From the NCBI RefSeq assembly GCF_025200925.1, contig NZ_CP104174.1, positions 2,914,001 through 2,978,000 of the forward strand: a stretch of 64,000 nt of DNA, written 5' to 3'. Below are positions 27,045-35,756 of the stretch, one piece after another. The notes beneath the pieces are model-generated. The model made no database searches and was not told where the DNA came from. It saw only the letters and a program-made list of their open reading frames with translations. Source of the stretch: Bradyrhizobium sp. CB1015. Its GTDB lineage: Bacteria > Pseudomonadota > Alphaproteobacteria > Rhizobiales > Xanthobacteraceae. The first letter of the stretch is position 1. Every line of letters starts with the position of its first letter. The position numbers and the translations under genes are program-made.

Positions 27045-27069
27045 AACGCGCACGTGATTCCCTGGTTCC
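27045..27069 (-). promoter_or_regulatory. EcfG-type promoter, full consensus
   Basis: Minus strand GGAAC (27069-27065), 16 bp, CGTT (27048-27045), 26 bp before the start at 27018. Confidence 0.75.
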
Positions 27070-27175: not shown

Positions 27176-27397
27176 ATGGGTAAGGTCGTCTTTCTTTACC
27201 GCTCGCTGGCCTATCGCAACGCAGCCGCGGACATCCTGCGCAAGGCGCGCAAGCTCCCGCGTGGCGCGGAACGGAGCGCGGCTCGCCGCTACGCCAAGGC
27301 GCTGCGCGATCTCGCGCGAACGGAAGCCTGGCTCGAGGGGCGCGTCGCACGCGAACCGCGGACCGCTCAGCGCATGACGAGCGCAGCGTCCGGTTAG
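27176..27397 (+). CDS. Small basic hypothetical protein
   Basis: 73 residues, Arg/Ala-rich: MGKVVFLYRSLAYRNAAADI, LRKARKLPRGAERSAARRYA, KALRDLARTEAWLEGRVARE. Predicted helical; possibly nucleic-acid binding. No ribosome-binding site, but a 17-codon frame (27130-27183) overlaps the start. The stop overlaps the stop of the convergent HWE kinase by 4 bp. Confidence 0.5.
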   Translation: MGKVVFLYRSLAYRNAAADILRKARKLPRGAERSAARRYAKALRDLARTEAWLEGRVAREPRTAQRMTSAASG

Positions 27398-28881
27398 CCG
27401 GATGCGCGCTGCAATTCGGCAGCGCCCGCGGTGTCGAACTTGCCGGGTCCCGTCGTCGCGGTCTTTCGTGTCAACGGCACCTCCAGACGGCACAACAGGC
27501 CCTCGGCGCGCCAATCGAACCGCGCCTGTCCGCCAAGCTGGGACTCGATGCTCGCAAGCAGGCTTCGCGTGCCGAAGCCGCGCGATTTCGGGGTCTTGAC
27601 CAGGGGACCGCCGGATTCCTCCCAGCTCAGCGTGAGCAGCTCGGCGTCGACCTGCCAGTCGATCGCGAGCCGCCCCGATCGGGTCGAGAGCGCGCCGTAC
27701 TTTGCCGAGTTGGTGAAGAGCTCGTGCAGCGCGAGCGCCAGCGTCTGGGCCGTCGCCGGCAGCAACTGAACTTCGGGCCCTGCCAATTTGATCTGGTCGC
27801 CGAGCGAATACGGCGCAAGCTCCTCGTCGATCAACCTGGAGAGTTCGGCTCCCTGCCAGCTCGACAGCGACAGGATGGTGTGCACGCGCGCCAGCGCATT
27901 GATGCGCCCCTCGACGGCGTTGACATAGGCCTTGACCTCGTCGGCCCGGGTGAGGCGCACGATCGACTGCGCCAGCGCCAGCGCGTTCTTCGCGCGATGA
28001 TCGACTTCCCGCGCCAGCAGGTTCTGCCGCTCCTCGGCCCGCTTGCGCTCGGTGATGTCGACGGTAACGCCACTGACGCGCACCACGCGCCCGCTCTCGT
28101 CCGTGGTCGCGGCCGCCGTGCCGACGCACCAGCGCACCTCGCCGTCGGGCCGCACGATGCGGAACTCCGTCTCATAGGCGCGCGTGCCCTTGTTGAATTC
28201 GGCGATCGCCTTGCGCAACTGATCGACGTCGTCGGGGTGCAACAGGGCCTGAACGTTGGCCGGAGTGACCTCGAAATCCTCGGGGCTGACGCCGAAGATG
28301 CGGTATTGCCCCTCGTCCCACATCCAATCGCCGCTGATCCAGTCCCAGTCCCAGGACCCCATCTTGCCGGCCGCGATCGCCATGCTGCGCCGCTGCTCGC
28401 TCTCGCGCAGCTTCGCGGTGGAACGCTCCAGTTCCGCGGTGCGTGCGCGGACGCGGTCCTCGAGCTCGTGGTTCAGCCGCTCGAGCTCGCGCGTCTTGCG
28501 GTAGAGCTCGGCAAACACCTTGATCTTGGCGCGAAGCACCTCCGGCACGACCGGCACCGGCACGTAGTCGACCGCGCCCATCTCATAGCCGCGCAGCCGG
28601 TCGATGTCGCTGACCTGGATGGCCGAGATGAAGATCATCGCGGTCTTCTGGAATCGGGGGTGCTCGCGGATCATCGCGGCGAGCTCGAAGCCGTCGAGCT
28701 CGGGCATGCAGACGTCGACCAGGATCACCGCGATCTCGGTCTTGAGCAGCACCTCCAGCGCCTCGCGGCCCGAGGAGGCGATCACGAGGTTTTCGCCGAG
28801 ATCCTTCAGAATCACCTCATAGGCGAGCAGCTTGGCGGGCTGGTCGTCGACGAGGAGGATATTGACCTGGTCGTGGTCCAT
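27394..28881 (-). CDS. REC-PAS-HWE histidine kinase
   Basis: 495 residues. REC receiver at 1-120 (VNILLVDDQPAKLLAYEVIL; phospho-Asp in VILVDVCMPELDG), a coiled coil at about 130-170 (LERLNHELEDRVRARTAELE), a PAS domain at about 175-290 (SWDWDWISGDWMWDEGQYRI), then an HWE kinase core with phospho-acceptor His in REVDHRAKNALALAQSIVRL, the N-box His in LALALHELFTNSAKYGALS and the WEESGGP motif. No membrane segment. HWE kinases typically phosphorylate PhyR-type or single-domain regulators. It follows the giant hybrid kinase by 13 bp and is probably in the same mRNA. Confidence 0.92.
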   Translation of the reverse strand: MDHDQVNILLVDDQPAKLLAYEVILKDLGENLVIASSGREALEVLLKTEIAVILVDVCMPELDGFELAAMIREHPRFQKTAMIFISAIQVSDIDRLRGYEMGAVDYVPVPVVPEVLRAKIKVFAELYRKTRELERLNHELEDRVRARTAELERSTAKLRESEQRRSMAIAAGKMGSWDWDWISGDWMWDEGQYRIFGVSPEDFEVTPANVQALLHPDDVDQLRKAIAEFNKGTRAYETEFRIVRPDGEVRWCVGTAAATTDESGRVVRVSGVTVDITERKRAEERQNLLAREVDHRAKNALALAQSIVRLTRADEVKAYVNAVEGRINALARVHTILSLSSWQGAELSRLIDEELAPYSLGDQIKLAGPEVQLLPATAQTLALALHELFTNSAKYGALSTRSGRLAIDWQVDAELLTLSWEESGGPLVKTPKSRGFGTRSLLASIESQLGGQARFDWRAEGLLCRLEVPLTRKTATTGPGKFDTAGAAELQRASG

Positions 28882-28894
28882 TCGCGGATCCCAC

Positions 28895-31800
28895 TCAGCG
28901 GTGCAGCCACATGCGGATCGCAAGCAGCAATTGGTCGGTGTTGACGGGCTTGGCGAGGTAATCGGACGCGCCGGCTTCGAGGCACTTCTCCCGGTCGCCC
29001 TTCATCGCCTTGGCGGTCAACGCGATGATCGGAAGACGGGCGAAGTCCGGGTTCTCGCGGATCACGCCGATGGTCTGATAGCCATCCATCTGCGGCATCA
29101 TGATGTCCATCAGCACGATCGCGATCTCCGGATTGGATTCGACCAGTGCCACCGCCTCGCTGCCGGTCGTCGCCGTCAGCACTTTCATGCCGCGTCGTTC
29201 CAGCACGCTCGACAGCGCGAAGATGTTGCGGGCGTCGTCGTCGACGAGCAGGGCAGTCTTGCCGATCAGGTCCTCGTCGGAACTGTTCAGCTTCTCCAGC
29301 ATGCGCTGCTTCTCTGCCGGCAGCTCCGTGATCACGCGGTGCAGGAACAACGCGGTCTCGTCGAGCAGGCGCTCGGGCGATTCCACGCCCTTGACCACGA
29401 TGCTGCGCGCCATGGTGTGAAGCTCGGCATCCTCCTCGGCGGAAAGCTCGCGGCCGGTGAATACCACGACGGGGATGTTCGACAGCGCCTCGTCGTTGCG
29501 GATCTGATCGAGCACCTCGAAGCCGGTCATGTCGGGCAGCCTGAGGTCGAGCACCACGCAATCGCAGGGCTGCTCGCGTAGCGTCGTGAGCGCGCCGGCC
29601 CCGGTATCCGTGGCCAGGATCTCGATATCGTCGTGGTGCAGCAGCTCGCGGATCGAGAGCTGCTCGGCCTCGTTGTCCTCGACGATCAAGAGCCGCTTGC
29701 GCCGCGGCCGCGCATATTCCTTGATCTGCGTCAGCGCGGCCGAGACGCCCTCGGTCGTCGTCGGCTTGCTGACGAAGGAGAAGGCGCCGCGCGCCAGCGC
29801 ATGCTGGCGGTCCTCGTCGAGCGTGATGATCTGGACCGGGATATGGCGGGTGAGCGGATTGTGCTTGAGCTGGCTCAGCACGGTCCAGCCGAGCATGTCC
29901 GGCAGGAACACGTCGAGGGAGACCGCCGTCGGCTGGTATTGCTTGGCGAGCTCGAGGGCCTCGGCGCCGCGCGCGGCGACCAGGACCTTGAAGCCCTTGT
30001 CGCGGGCCAGATCGACCAGCACGCGGGCGTAATGCGGGTCGTCCTCGACGATCAGGAGGATGGTGTCGCCGGGCTCGAGGTTGAGGCGGTCGTCGGGCAG
30101 TTGCTCGATGACGCGCTGCTGGTCAGGCGCGGCCGGCTGCAGCGCAGGCGTCTGGCTGTATTGCTGTGACGCCGGCGCCCGCGGCGCGAGAGTCGGGCCT
30201 GAATATTTCAAGGGCAGATAGAGCGTGAAGGTCGAGCCCTTGCCAGGCGCGCTGCGCAGGTGGATCTCGCCGCCGAGCAGGCTGGCAAGCTCGCGGCTGA
30301 TCGCAAGGCCGAGGCCGGTGCCGCCATATTTGCGGCTGGTGCCGGCGTCGGCCTGCTGGAACGCCTCGAAGATCAGCTTCTGCTTCTCCAGGGGAATGCC
30401 GATGCCGGTGTCGGACACTTCGAATGCGATCACGGCCGGCGCGGAGTTCAGCACCGGATGATCCGTCCCCCAGCCGCCGACTGCGCCGGTGACCTTCAGG
30501 CGCACCTCGCCCTCGGCGGTGAACTTGAAGGCGTTGGAAAGCAGATTCTTCAGAACCTGTTGCAGCCGCTTGGAGTCGGTCACGATGCTGCGCGGCAGGT
30601 TCGGATCGACGTCGATCTTGAACGACAGGTTGCGGTTATCCGCCTCGTGCCGGAACGGCCGGCCGACGGTCTCGAGCAGGTTCGCGGTCAGGATTTCCTC
30701 GGCGTCGACCGTCACGGTGCCGGACTCGATCTTGGAGAGATCGAGAATGTCGCTGATGAGGTTGAGCAGGTCGGTGCCGGCGCCGTGAATGGTGCGTGCG
30801 AATTCGACCTGCTTGGCCGAGAGGTTGCCATCGGGGTTGTCGCTGAGCTGCTGCCCGAGGATCAGGATCGAGTTCAGCGGCGTGCGCAGCTCGTGGCTCA
30901 TATTGGCGAGGAATTCGGACTTGTACTTCGACGTCAGCGCGAGCTCGGTCGCCTTCTCCTCGAGCGCGCGGCGGGCCTGCTCGATCTCCTGGTTCTTGCG
31001 TTCCACCTCGACGTTGCGCTCGGCGAGCTGCTGCGCCTTCTGCTCGAGCTGGTCGTTGGTCTGCTGCAATTCGCGCTGCTGGGTCTGCAACTCGCCGGCG
31101 AGCTGCTGCGACTGCTTGAGCAGGCCTTCGGTCTGCATCGTGGCCTCGATCGAATTGAGCACGATGCCGATGGAATCGGTGAGCTGCTCCAGGAACGTCA
31201 TCTGCGACGTCGTGAAGGAGATGAGCGAGGCGAGCTCGATCACGGCCTTGACCTGTCCCTCGAACAGCACCGGCAGCACGACGAGGTTTTTCGGCGCAAC
31301 GCGGAACAGCGCCGAGTTGATCGGCACCACGTCCGACGGAATGTCGGAGACGACGCGCGGCCGCTTGTCGAAGGCGCATTGGCCGATCAGGCCTTCGCCG
31401 AATTGCAGCACCGGCTGATAGGGGTAGACGCCGTCGCTGGCGTAGGAGGCGAGCAGCAGGAGCTGCGGATCGTTCTCGTTCTCGACCTGGTAGATCACGC
31501 CGGTGTGGGCGTTCACCAGCGGCGACAATTCGGTGAGCAGCAGCCGGCCGACGGTGGTGAGGTCGCGCTGGCCCTGGAGCATGTTGGTGAACTTGGCAAG
31601 GTTGGTCTTGAGCCAGTCCTGCTCGGTGTTCAGCTCCGTCGTGAGACGGAGGTTGGTGATCATCGTGTTGATGTTGTCTTTCAGCTCCGCCACTTCGCCG
31701 CGGGCGTCGACCTGGATCGACCGTGTCAGGTCGCCCTTGGTCACCGCGGTTGCGACTTCCGCGATCGCGCGCACCTGCGAGGTCAGGTTGGCCGCGAGCA

Positions 31801-34800
31801 GGTTGACGTTGCCGGTGAGATCCTTCCAGGTGCCGGCAGCGCCGGGCACGTTGGCCTGACCGCCGAGCCGGCCTTCGACGCCGACCTCGCGCGCCACCGA
31901 GGTCACCTGATCGGCGAAGGTCGCGAGCGTCTCGGTCATGTTGTTGATGGTGTCGGCGAGCGCCGCGACCTCGCCCTTCGATTTCACCGTGAGGTTCTGC
32001 TTCAGATCGCCATTGGCGACCGCGGTCACCACCTTGACGATGCCGCGCACCTGCTCGGTCAGGTTCGCCGCCATGAAGTTGACGGTGTCGGTGAGATCCT
32101 TCCAGGTGCCGGCGACGCCGGGCACCTGGGCCTGGCCGCCGAGCTTGCCCTCGGTGCCGACCTCGCGCGCCACGCGCGTCACTTCGCCGGCGAAGGCGTT
32201 GAGCTGGTCCACCATGGTGTTGATGGTGTTCTTCAGCTCCAGGATTTCGCCCTTCACGTCCACGGTGATCTTGCGCGAGAGGTCACCGCGCGCGACGGCC
32301 GTGGTGACTTCGGCGATGTTGCGGACCTGGGTGGTCAGGTTCGCAGCCAAGAGGTTGACGTTGTCGGTGAGGTCCTTCCAGGTGCCGCCGACGCCGGGCA
32401 CGACGGCCTGACCGCCGAGCCGGCCCTCGGTGCCGACCTCGCGCGCCACGCGCGTGACTTCGGCGGCGAAGGAGCGGAGCTGCTCGACCATGGTGTTCAG
32501 CGTGTCCTTCAGGAGAAGGATCTCGCCGCGTACGTCCACCGTGATCTTCTTCGACAGGTCGCCGCCGGCGATCGCGGTTGCGACCTCGGCGATGTTGCGG
32601 ACCTGCGCCGTCAGGTTGGAGGCCATGAAGTTGACGTTGTCGGTGAGGTCCTTCCAGGTGCCGGCGACGCCGGGCACCTCGGCCTGGCCGCCGAGCTTGC
32701 CTTCGGTGCCGACCTCGCGCGCCACGCGCGTGACTTCGCCGGCAAAGCCGTTGAGCTGGTCCACCATGGTGTTGATGGTGTTCTTCAGCTCCAGGATTTC
32801 GCCCTTCACGTCCACGGTGATCTTGCGCGAGAGGTCACCGCGCGCGACCGCCGTGGTGACTTCGGCGATGTTGCGGACCTGGGCGGTCAGGTTGCCCGCC
32901 ATCGAGTTGACGCTGTCGGTGAGATCCTTCCACGTGCCGGCGACGCCGGGCACGTTGGCCTGGCCGCCGAGGCGGCCTTCGGTGCCGACCTCGCGCGCCA
33001 CGCGCGTCACCTCGCCCGCGAAGCGGTTGAGCTGGTCGACCATCGTGTTCAGCGTGTCCTTGAGCTGAAGGATCTCGCCGCGCACGTCCACGGTGATCTT
33101 GCGCGACAGGTCGCCGCCGGCGATCGCGGTCGCGACCTCGGCGATGTTGCGGACCTGGGCGGTGAGGTTGCCCGCCATCGAGTTCACCGAGTCGGTCAGG
33201 TCTTTCCACGTGCCGGCAACGCCGGGCACGTCGGCCTGGCCGCCGAGCTTGCCGTCGGTGCCGACCTCGCGGGCGACGCGCGTGACTTCGCCGGCGAAGG
33301 CGTTGAGCTGGTCGACCATGGTGTTGAGCGTCTCCTTCAGCTGAAGGATTTCGCCCGAGACGTTCACCGTGATCTTCTTGGACAAGTCGCCCTTCGCCAC
33401 CGCGGTTGCGACCTCGGCGATGTTGCGAACCTGGCCGGTGAGGTTCGAGGCCATCGAGTTGACGCTGTCGGTGAGATCCTTCCACGTGCCGCCGACGCCG
33501 CGCACCACTGCCTGACCGCCGAGCTTGCCTTCGGTGCCGACCTCGCGCGCCACGCGCGTGACTTCGCCGGCGAAGGCGTTGAGCTGGTCCACCATCGTGT
33601 TGATGGTATCTTTCAGCTCCAGGATCTCGCCGCGCACGTCCACGGTGATCTTCTTCGAGAGGTCGCCGCCGGCGACTGCGGTGGTCACCTCGGCGATGTT
33701 GCGGACCTGCGCGGTCAGGTTCGAGGCCATCGAGTTGACGCTCTCGGTCAGGTCCTTCCACGTGCCGGCGACGCCGAGCACGTTGGCTTGGCCGCCGAGC
33801 CGGCCCTCGGTGCCGACCTCGCGGGCGACGCGCGTGACTTCGCCGGCGAAGGCGTTGAGCTGGTCGACCATGGTGTTGAGCGTCTCCTTCAGCTGAAGGA
33901 TCTCGCCCGAGACGTTCACCGTGATCTTCTTCGACAAATCGCCGCTCGCGATGGCAGTCGCGACGTCGGCGATGTTGCGGACCTGCGCGGTCAGGTTCGA
34001 GGCCATGAAGTTGACGTTGTCGGTGAGGTCCTTCCAGGTGCCGGCCACGCCGGGCACCTGGGCCTGACCGCCGAGCTTGCCCTCGGTGCCGACCTCGCGC
34101 GCCACGCGCGTCACTTCCGAGGCGAACGAGTTTAGCTGGTCCACCATGGTGTTGATGGTGTCCTTCAGCTCCAGGATTTCGCCGCGCACGTCCACCGTGA
34201 TCTTGCGCGAGAGGTCGCCGCGCGCCACGGCGGTGGTGACGTTGGCGATGTTGCGCACCTGTGCGGTGAGGTTGCCGCACATCGCGTTGACCGAGTCCGT
34301 CAAGTCCTTCCAGGTGCCGGCGACGCCCGGCACGATGGCCTGGCCGCCGAGCTTGCCGTCGGTGCCGACCTCGCGTGCCACGCGCGTCACTTCGGAGGCG
34401 AACGAGCGCAGCTGGTCCACCATCGTATTGATGGCTTCCTTGAGCTGGAGGATCTCGCCGCGGACGTCGACCGTGATCTTCTTGGAGAGATCACCGTTGG
34501 CGACCGCGATCGTCACCTCGGCGATGTTGCGAACCTGGTTGGTCAGGTTGTTCGCCATCGAGTTGACGCTCTCGGTGAGGTCCTTCCAGACGCCGGTCAC
34601 CTCGGGCACCTGGGCCTGACCGCCGAGCTTGCCCTCGGTGCCGACCTCGCGCGCCACGCGCGTCACCTCGGAGGTGAAAACGCTGAGCTGCTTGATCATG
34701 GTGTTGACGATGGTCGCCGACTGCAAGAACTCGCCGCCGAGCGGACGGCCGTCGACGTCGAGCTTGACGGTCTGCAGCAGGTCGCCTTGTGCCACGGCGG

Positions 34801-35188
34801 CGACGGCGCGCGTCACCTCGCGCGTCGGCCACAACAGGTCGTCGATCAGCGTGTTGACCGAACCTTCCATGTCGGCCCAGGAGCCCGAGGCGAGGCCGAA
34901 CTTCACGCGCTGGCGGGTCTTGCCTTCGCGCCCCACCACCTGGCCGACCAGCTCGAGCTGCTGCGCCATGCGCTGGTTGGCTGCGATGATTTCGTTAAGA
35001 GTGTCGGCAATTTTGCCGTCAATGCCGAGATAGTCGCCGCTCATGCGTACCGAGAAGTCACCGCTGCGCATCGCCTGCAAGGCGAGCAGCAGTTCCGCGC
35101 GGGAATCCGGCTCGGACGTACCGTTGATCTTTGGCTTTGGGACGCGACGACCGGAGCGTGATGCAGTTCCGGGATCGAGGTCGCTCAT
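28895..35188 (-). CDS. Giant soluble poly-HAMP hybrid histidine kinase with three receivers
   Basis: 2097 residues. Residues about 30-170 are one or two divergent HAMP-like units ([20 protein letters not shown]). About 170-1185 contain eleven tandem 92-residue HAMP units, each starting [16 protein letters not shown] and ending with ILxLKxTxNTMVDQL. A GAF domain covers about 1188-1353, a Gln/Glu-rich coiled coil 1353-1420, HisKA with His1432 ([13 protein letters not shown]), HATPase to about 1660, then receivers at about 1705-1825, 1830-1945 and 1975-2090. No signal peptide or membrane helix. The architecture recalls fungal group III (Nik1/Os-1) kinases, osmotic and stress sensors. The start at 35188 ([10 protein letters not shown]) has GGGGGA upstream. 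Confidence 0.93.
31640..34690. repeat. Eleven in-frame 276-bp tandem repeats encoding HAMP units
   Basis: The block GGTGCCGACCTCGCG recurs with a 276-bp period (for example 34085 and 34361) through the kinase gene. Units differ by scattered, mostly synonymous changes, pointing to past duplication plus purifying selection. Such arrays can recombine and change unit number. Confidence 0.9.
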
Positions 35189-35324
35189 ACTGATTCCCCC
35201 GCAGGCGTCGGCCGAATCCGCGGCAAGACGCATTGGTCGAAATAGAGCGTCAGCCAAATTCGAAATCAAGCGCCAAGGTACGGCGCCGGGAAATGGAACC
35301 CGCTTTGCTCAGCCCGACCAAGCT

Positions 35325-35349
35325 AACGACGATCCTCCGATTTGGTTCC
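35325..35349 (-). promoter_or_regulatory. EcfG-type promoter, full consensus, before the giant kinase
   Basis: Minus strand GGAAC (35349-35345), 16 bp, CGTT (35328-35325). It is 136 bp before the kinase start, so the mRNA would have a long leader. Confidence 0.65.
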
Positions 35350-35413: not shown

Positions 35414-35439
35414 GGAACGGAGCGCCGAGCCTGACGGTT
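35414..35439 (+). promoter_or_regulatory. EcfG-type promoter
   Basis: GGAAC (35414-35418), 17 bp, GGTT (35436-35439), 26 bp before the small exported protein gene at 35466. Divergent from the kinase promoter 64 bp away. Confidence 0.65.
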
Positions 35440-35465: not shown

Positions 35466-35756
35466 ATGAAAGCAGCACTTGCCGCCATCGCTATTGTCGT
35501 GCTTGCCGCGGGAGCGGCTCTGGCGCAGGGCGGTGCGCCAAGCGGGCGCGGGTCCGTGACGGGCGACCCCGCCGCAAGCTCCGCCAACCCGCAGGCAGAC
35601 ACGACCACCGGAGCGGCCACGCGCTCGAATCCAAGCGGAAGCGGCACGTCGTCTTCCGGCGGCAAGGACGACAACGGCGATGCGGGTCGCGACAAGATGC
35701 CGGAGAGCGACCGCACCGTGCGGCCGCAAAGCCAGCAACATCCGAGCGACAAGTAG
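35466..35756 (+). CDS. Small exported disordered protein
   Basis: 96 residues. A signal peptide (MKAALAAIAIVVLAAGAALA, cleavage before QGG) is followed by a low-complexity Ser/Gly/Asp/Pro/Gln tail without Cys (GTSSSGGKDDNGDAGRDKMP). Likely periplasmic and unfolded. GGGAGAA precedes the ATG. EcfG promoter upstream. Confidence 0.75.
   Translation: MKAALAAIAIVVLAAGAALAQGGAPSGRGSVTGDPAASSANPQADTTTGAATRSNPSGSGTSSSGGKDDNGDAGRDKMPESDRTVRPQSQQHPSDK

Follow-up and report, generated by a model that had tools for sequence, protein, structure and literature searches.

The window analysed here, a stretch of 64,000 nucleotides from Bradyrhizobium sp. CB1015, a member of a genus of legume symbionts, encodes two histidine kinases of different families in tandem on its minus strand. 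The first is a giant with a long array of HAMP domains, and the second begins with a receiver. What does the giant kinase sense, how does it reach its neighbor, and to which target is the signal passed on?

The giant kinase (28895..35188, minus strand; ATG at 35188, stop at 28895) is a hybrid histidine kinase of 2097 aa in which Pfam profiles matched 11 HAMP and 11 HAMP_2 stretches, GAF_2, HisKA, HATPase_c, and three Response_reg domains. The HAMP array (31634..34669, minus strand; residues 174-1185) is built from 11 units of exactly 92 aa, and the unit starts keep this spacing in 10 of 10 intervals. Because every unit combines two HAMP-type domains, one HAMP and one HAMP_2, the rod amounts to ~22 HAMPs rather than 11. 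It is followed, on the same strand, by a GAF_2 domain (31157..31567), by HisKA with its phosphorylatable His1432 and HATPase_c (30206..30922), and by three receivers (28916..30058; limits of the first two assigned by us), each of which has its aspartate and lysine intact (Asp1759/Lys1808, Asp1881/Lys1933, and Asp2028/Lys2080). A hydropathy scan of the giant kinase found no membrane helix, the 19-residue maximum of 1.62 lying within the GAF domain. The profiles, the unit spacing, and this hydropathy maximum agree with the original prediction of a membrane-free protein with eleven 92-residue HAMP units, GAF, HisKA/HATPase, and three receivers. Pfam also reported SpoIIID (46.6 bits summed) and HTH_6 (under its cut-off) on the giant kinase. 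We rejected both as DNA-binding domains and read them as repeat artefacts, because both fall on the HAMP repeats and not one stretch clears its threshold. SpoIIID-like and HTH_6 matches overlap the HAMPs in the Ask system as well, and AskB of Myxococcus xanthus is described as binding DNA in vitro (PMC7643160).

The partner kinase (27394..28881, minus strand; 495 aa) starts 13 bp past the stop of the giant gene, an arrangement of the AskB-AskC type in which a membrane-free kinase with many tandem HAMPs, a histidine kinase core, and several receivers is followed immediately by a gene for a receiver-bearing kinase. Its receiver, PAS_3, and HWE_HK domains all score above Pfam cut-offs, HWE_HK with 80.7 bits against 22.8. 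HWE kinases are marked by a histidine in the DHp, an N box, and a WxE motif; the partner has His295 and W420-E-E in its HWE_HK and ATP-binding parts (27457..28008, minus strand; ATP-binding end assigned by us). Phosphorylation sites and ATP-binding motifs were sought, and found, in both kinases. Profiles and coordinates thus agree on a REC-PAS-HWE kinase, as had been predicted. The DHp further carries HRAKN at 295-299, which matches the HRxxN motif of the PhyR-activating (Pak) kinases of the HWE/HisKA_2 family (PMC5898713).

We then asked how consistently the two genes travel together. Among 60 relatives, the pair is complete in 36, counting one genome whose array was recognized by a weak match (G033) and one whose partner was recognized by its receiver part (G058). 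Of the 36 Bradyrhizobium genomes, CB1015 included, 35 have the partner, and these 35 also carry the HAMP array (in G033, a fragmented assembly, by the weak match); the sole Bradyrhizobium without the pair (G026) is missing both genes. In the Bradyrhizobium loci inspected, the partner starts directly behind the stop of the giant gene. A relative lies at most 208 bp downstream in 13 of 15 further loci of the class; L092 and L105 make up the remainder, and both end within the kinase gene. Eleven HAMP units were counted in 30 of 34 Bradyrhizobium loci (CB1015 included); in the other four the array is cut where the contig ends or, in L083, where the frame is broken. Across an even sample of the class, a close HAMP array occurs in 16 of 289 genomes, CB1015 counted. 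The two-kinase operon architecture that had been proposed is supported.

When named genomes were searched with the GAF-kinase segment, at least 588 stretches proved to encode relatives, and the best 80 loci were kept. These best 80 of at least 588 come from Cyanobacteria, Myxococcota, Verrucomicrobiota, Bacteroidota, Acidobacteriota, Chloroflexota, Bacillota, Gemmatimonadota, and Pseudomonadota, among others. Seventy-five of the 80 have two or more HAMP units, which speaks against the earlier view of soluble bacterial poly-HAMP kinases as little described. A receiver-first kinase lies within 6 kb downstream in 61 of the 80; the remaining 19 include five with no DNA downstream. By sequence, the giant kinase and its partner are one version of a cassette that recurs in several phyla. 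This recurrence, together with the simultaneous absence of both genes from G026, makes it very improbable that the two kinases are mere neighbors with separate functions.

Other genes accompany the cassette. A CheR gene stands between the poly-HAMP kinase and the receiver-first kinase in 11 of these 61 loci (from the best 80 of at least 588), and likewise before the receiver-first kinase in two Deinococcus plasmids; loci with CheR directly behind the poly-HAMP kinase are L108, L116, L118, L131, L134, L135, L136, L140, L143, L144, L149, and others. This neighbor hints at a methylation-based adaptation of the soluble poly-HAMP kinase. Trehalose or glycogen genes lie near the poly-HAMP kinase in Rhizobium etli p42f (malQ-treZ; L107) and Streptomyces fungicidicus p1 (maltokinase-glgB; L109). 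Downstream of its kinase, L109 (8779-18619) further encodes an ANTAR-GAF-PAS-SpoIIE phosphatase together with STAS and anti-sigma proteins. An actinobacterial coupling of the poly-HAMP kinase to a SpoIIE/RsbW sigma switch, which L109 suggested, is not claimed, since at a second Streptomyces kinase (L198) the SpoIIE-like frame is on the opposite strand.

To see which parts of the pair are held constant, we classified the kinase type of 84 partners (61 among the best 80 of at least 588 loci and 23 others), a set that contains near-copies from Bradyrhizobium (six) and Rhizobium (four or five). HisKA accounts for 63, HWE for 17, and HisKA_3-like for 4; the HisKA_3-like assignments (L132, L133, L170, and L172) and the HisKA call for L104, which is cut by a contig end, are our own readings made without a profile. 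An HWE output kinase, previously put forward as a hallmark of the system, is hence found in only 17 of the 84. Of these HWE partners, 16 are from Alphaproteobacteria. The seventeenth (L180) comes from a metagenome-assembled genome labelled Gammaproteobacteria and falls inside the Bradyrhizobium clade, perhaps through mis-binning. In the receiver tree, where the closest relative of the CB1015 receiver is that of Bradyrhizobium nitroreducens (98% identity), a supported clade (100/98) of 32 receivers that includes the CB1015 gene unites HWE (17), HisKA (13), and HisKA_3-like (2) kinases. The kinase behind the receiver must have changed at least twice within this clade; without the HisKA_3-like reading, the tree calls for one change. 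On this evidence, the constant part of the partner is its N-terminal receiver, and the output kinase behind it has been swapped.

The partner receiver (28522..28860, minus strand) retains Asp56 and departs from a canonical receiver at the switch lysine before the conserved proline, which is Val109 (VDYVPVP). All 23 partner receivers that were aligned (23 of 23) retain the Asp pair as well as the acceptor Asp. Valine occupies the lysine position in all 32 rows of the supported clade, and the lysine is absent from 54 of the 84 partners (again 61 from the best 80 of at least 588 loci plus 23 others); our pattern for the receiver found none in five loci (L068, L088, L092, L098, and L105). A single-sequence model of the receiver (165 aa; pLDDT 80 for the best model and 49 to 61 for the four remaining ones) has a helix at 113-164, and agrees with a receiver leading into a long helix. 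Loss of the switch lysine should weaken phospho-driven switching, and it counts against a plain phosphorelay into this receiver. Such a classical two-tier relay, in the manner of KipF-PakF or LvrA-LvrB, would have the giant kinase phosphorylate Asp56 of the partner and thereby switch the HWE kinase. It is in keeping with the invariant aspartates and with the phosphorylation of LvrB at Asp56 by LvrA in Leptospira (PMC5863495); given the valine and the many partners without lysine, we consider it unlikely. We suggest that the partner would instead be recruited via its N-terminal receiver, probably by receiver-receiver docking; a plain phospho-switch is less likely for a receiver in which the acceptor Asp is still present and the switch lysine is gone. 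This proposal is modeled on the binding data for the Ask kinases of M. xanthus: AskA, AskB, and AskC bind one another, and in a two-hybrid assay Rec3 of AskA contacts the receiver of AskC (PMC7643160).

On the side of the giant kinase, we compared the array with the catalytic core. In end-to-end alignments with 26 other giant kinases, hand-picked from the loci collected, conservation of the HAMP array exceeds that of the HisKA/HATPase core in every case (26 of 26). Identity to the CB1015 protein in other phyla (rows from Deinococcus, Streptomyces, Verrucomicrobia, Myxococcota, Fibrobacteres, and Bacteroidota) is 73-84% for the array, 57-69% for the core, and 44-55% for the GAF domain, and the acidobacterial L172 is higher throughout (90%, 79%, and 59%, respectively). 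All 1012 residues of the array could be aligned in the 11-unit kinases L121, L131, L134, L172, and L182 and in the 13-unit L118. A linker whose conservation surpasses that of the catalytic core is more readily understood as a functional element, and the HAMP array probably serves as the sensor or as the place where a partner docks.

What switches the pair on? An EcfG-type promoter, GGAAC-N16-CGTT, lies upstream (35325..35349, minus strand), its start 161 bp ahead of the giant's ATG. It conforms to GGAAC-N16-17-CGTT, the upstream motif by which EcfG regulon members are recognized, and equals the motif published for EcfG1 of R. etli (PMC3892343). A single match of this kind proves nothing, because the exact motif occurs 167 times (86+81) in the genome (8.41 Mb, one contig) and the backward pattern 178 times (89+89); we discarded the genome-wide count as promoter proof, real and control counts being alike. 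What makes the promoter credible is its conservation across orthologs. The GGAAC box is found at -185..-140 in 31 of 31 Bradyrhizobium upstream regions, compared with at most 4 of 31 for any of the 29 other orderings of its letters. In the alignment of these regions, the GGAAC columns are 100% conserved and the two final T columns of the -10 box reach 100% and 97%, around a spacer of 34% mean pairwise identity. The exact motif is present in 12 of 31 and its N-GTT form in 19 of 31, against 0 and 2 of 31 for the backward controls. The promoter that had been predicted is thus present, with a box whose position is conserved throughout the orthologs.

Outside the genus, exact motifs precede 3 of 24 other alphaproteobacterial loci (complement control 1 of 24), and exact or relaxed motifs 0 of 30 non-alphaproteobacterial loci, the one relaxed match belonging to the alphaproteobacterial L092, in a cross-class count that omits 49 loci with no anchor, a contig edge, or repeats. 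Backward controls for Bradyrhizobium (36), other Alphaproteobacteria (24), and the rest (32, including the two alphaproteobacterial contigs L092 and L105) gave 0, 0, and 0 exact and 2, 1, and 1 relaxed matches; the complement control gave 2, 1, and 0, exact and relaxed alike. For the R. etli pair, which has a HisKA partner, the motif was not found in the 400 bp upstream. On the opposite strand, the Bradyrhizobium upstream regions hold exact motifs in 5 of 31 and relaxed ones in 17 of 31, which fits a divergent promoter for the neighboring gene, and part of the promoter signal may belong to that neighbor and not to the kinase operon. In CB1015, a weaker divergent EcfG-like box, GGAAC-N17-GGTT (35414..35439, plus strand), stands 26 bp ahead of an ATG at 35466, whose frame encodes, by our reading, a small, secreted-looking protein. 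Taken together, the predicted EcfG control of the kinase pair is well supported, and the pair is probably switched on by the general stress system of its host. EcfG-driven kinases have a precedent in Sphingomonas melonis, where EcfG controls an orphan hybrid kinase (PMC6599016).

Further exact EcfG motifs start at 27069 and 37541 (minus strand), the former ending 27 bp before an 85-aa frame without a Pfam match. The neighborhood (22286-42669) looks like a stress-response district, with genes for Usp, a DegP-like protease, two DUF4142 proteins, PAP2, a TPP enzyme, and a PRC-barrel protein.

As for the target, the HRxxN motif in the DHp and the EcfG-type promoter make PhyR the likeliest output of the partner, and a plausible candidate for it. 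HWE kinases often feed PhyR. The CB1015 genome encodes NepR (profile match), and ecfG and phyR adjoin it by our own reading of translations, in a cluster that lies, less favorably for this output, ~1.79 Mb from the kinase pair. Matches to HWE_HK or HisKA_2 fall at eight places in the genome (7 and 7, overlapping), so the PhyR kinase cannot be chosen by family. Alternatively, the pair would be controlled by EcfG while its HWE kinase serves another receiver, for instance in envelope, motility, or attachment functions, as an effector arm that does not feed back. The HRxxN motif argues against this, and so, weakly, does the concentration of HWE partners in the class that has PhyR, since HWE kinases are mostly alphaproteobacterial anyway. 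The exchange of kinase types on the same receiver, by contrast, suggests a lineage-specific output, and exact EcfG boxes also precede HisKA-type pairs (L095 and L115). Moreover, an HWE kinase apparently outside the general stress response exists: two studies concluded that PhyK of Brucella does not feed PhyR, though the data of PMC12354254 itself leave such a role possible (PMC12354254). An output through PhyR is accordingly not certain, and we regard a different target as a serious possibility, if somewhat short of probable.

The reading we prefer, and hold with about even confidence, is that an AskB-AskC-type pair has been built into the alphaproteobacterial general stress response, its HWE kinase signaling most likely to PhyR. 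EcfG would transcribe both genes, as promoter conservation and gene spacing suggest. The giant kinase would sense an intracellular condition through its HAMP rod, its GAF domain, or both, and set its own kinase and three receivers. Once docked, the HWE kinase would signal to a target that depends on the lineage, PhyR being the likeliest, and so act back on EcfG. The positive loop of the original prediction is possible, given the conserved promoter and the operon architecture.

More speculatively, the cassette may be a cross-phylum stress sensor in which a near-invariant cytoplasmic HAMP rod is the sensor and, through a docking receiver that lacks its switch lysine in many lineages, recruits whatever kinase the lineage provides, an HWE kinase and an EcfG promoter tying it in Alphaproteobacteria to the PhyR-NepR-EcfG switch; we hold this broader proposal only tentatively. 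The pair would offer a model, in a bacterium open to genetics, of the HAMP rod targeted by antifungals in fungi, along with a candidate input to the Bradyrhizobium general stress response. It would also allow the study of a receiver acting by docking in place of the usual phospho-switch. Soluble bacterial poly-HAMP kinases are better described than the prediction allowed, AskA, AskB, and Amb07 of myxobacteria being known (PMC7643160). Also known are the kinds of domain, the gene order (askB-askC), and the action of one kinase on a receiver-bearing kinase that drives PhyR (KipF-PakF). Apparently undescribed, as far as we searched, are the variant with an HWE partner, the conservation of its EcfG-type promoter, the receiver without a switch lysine, and the swapping of kinase families behind that receiver. 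The higher conservation of the HAMP array relative to the catalytic core is likewise a new result; in open-licence PubMed Central, judged from its listings, we found no paper joining poly-HAMP kinases to HWE partners or EcfG.

How does the pair compare with known systems? Fungal group III kinases have fewer HAMPs, one receiver, and no known GAF domain, and deliver their output to the HOG relay. The giant kinase resembles Nik1, TcsC, and Bos1 in being membrane-free, with tandem HAMPs, HisKA/HATPase, and a receiver, a likeness drawn in part from PMC7643160. Its gene lies on a bacterial chromosome, not in a fungus with a HOG pathway, and the comparison is with how such proteins work, by description. 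Like LvrA-LvrB, the pair combines a hybrid kinase with a receiver-first kinase in one operon, both cytosolic; phosphotransfer is known for LvrA-LvrB, whose description in PMC5863495, as far as it extends, mentions neither poly-HAMP nor HWE.

As in KipF-PakF of S. melonis, one kinase would act on a second, which activates PhyR in S. melonis and for which PhyR is only a candidate output here. PakF is reportedly a receiver-first kinase. That order is implied in PMC5863495, through which the phosphorylation of PakF by KipF is also reported, and PakF phosphorylates PhyR when NepR is present (PMC5898713). The poly-HAMP front end sets the CB1015 pair apart from KipF-PakF; the lysine-less receiver is a feature of the CB1015 partner, and the likeness between the systems is drawn from descriptions.

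The Ask system differs in output, which is MrpC/FruA and development, without EcfG in the account given in PMC7643160, whereas the CB1015 pair has an EcfG-type promoter. AskC is named a hybrid kinase there, and the CB1015 partner is likened to it by description only. Six myxobacterial relatives divide over the receiver lysine, which is kept in L131, L158, L187, and L197 and absent from L121 and L125. In layout the two systems agree: askC lies immediately downstream of askB in M. xanthus, and the CB1015 giant, like AskA and AskB, is a membrane-free poly-HAMP hybrid kinase with a receiver-bearing kinase encoded by the next gene (PMC7643160).
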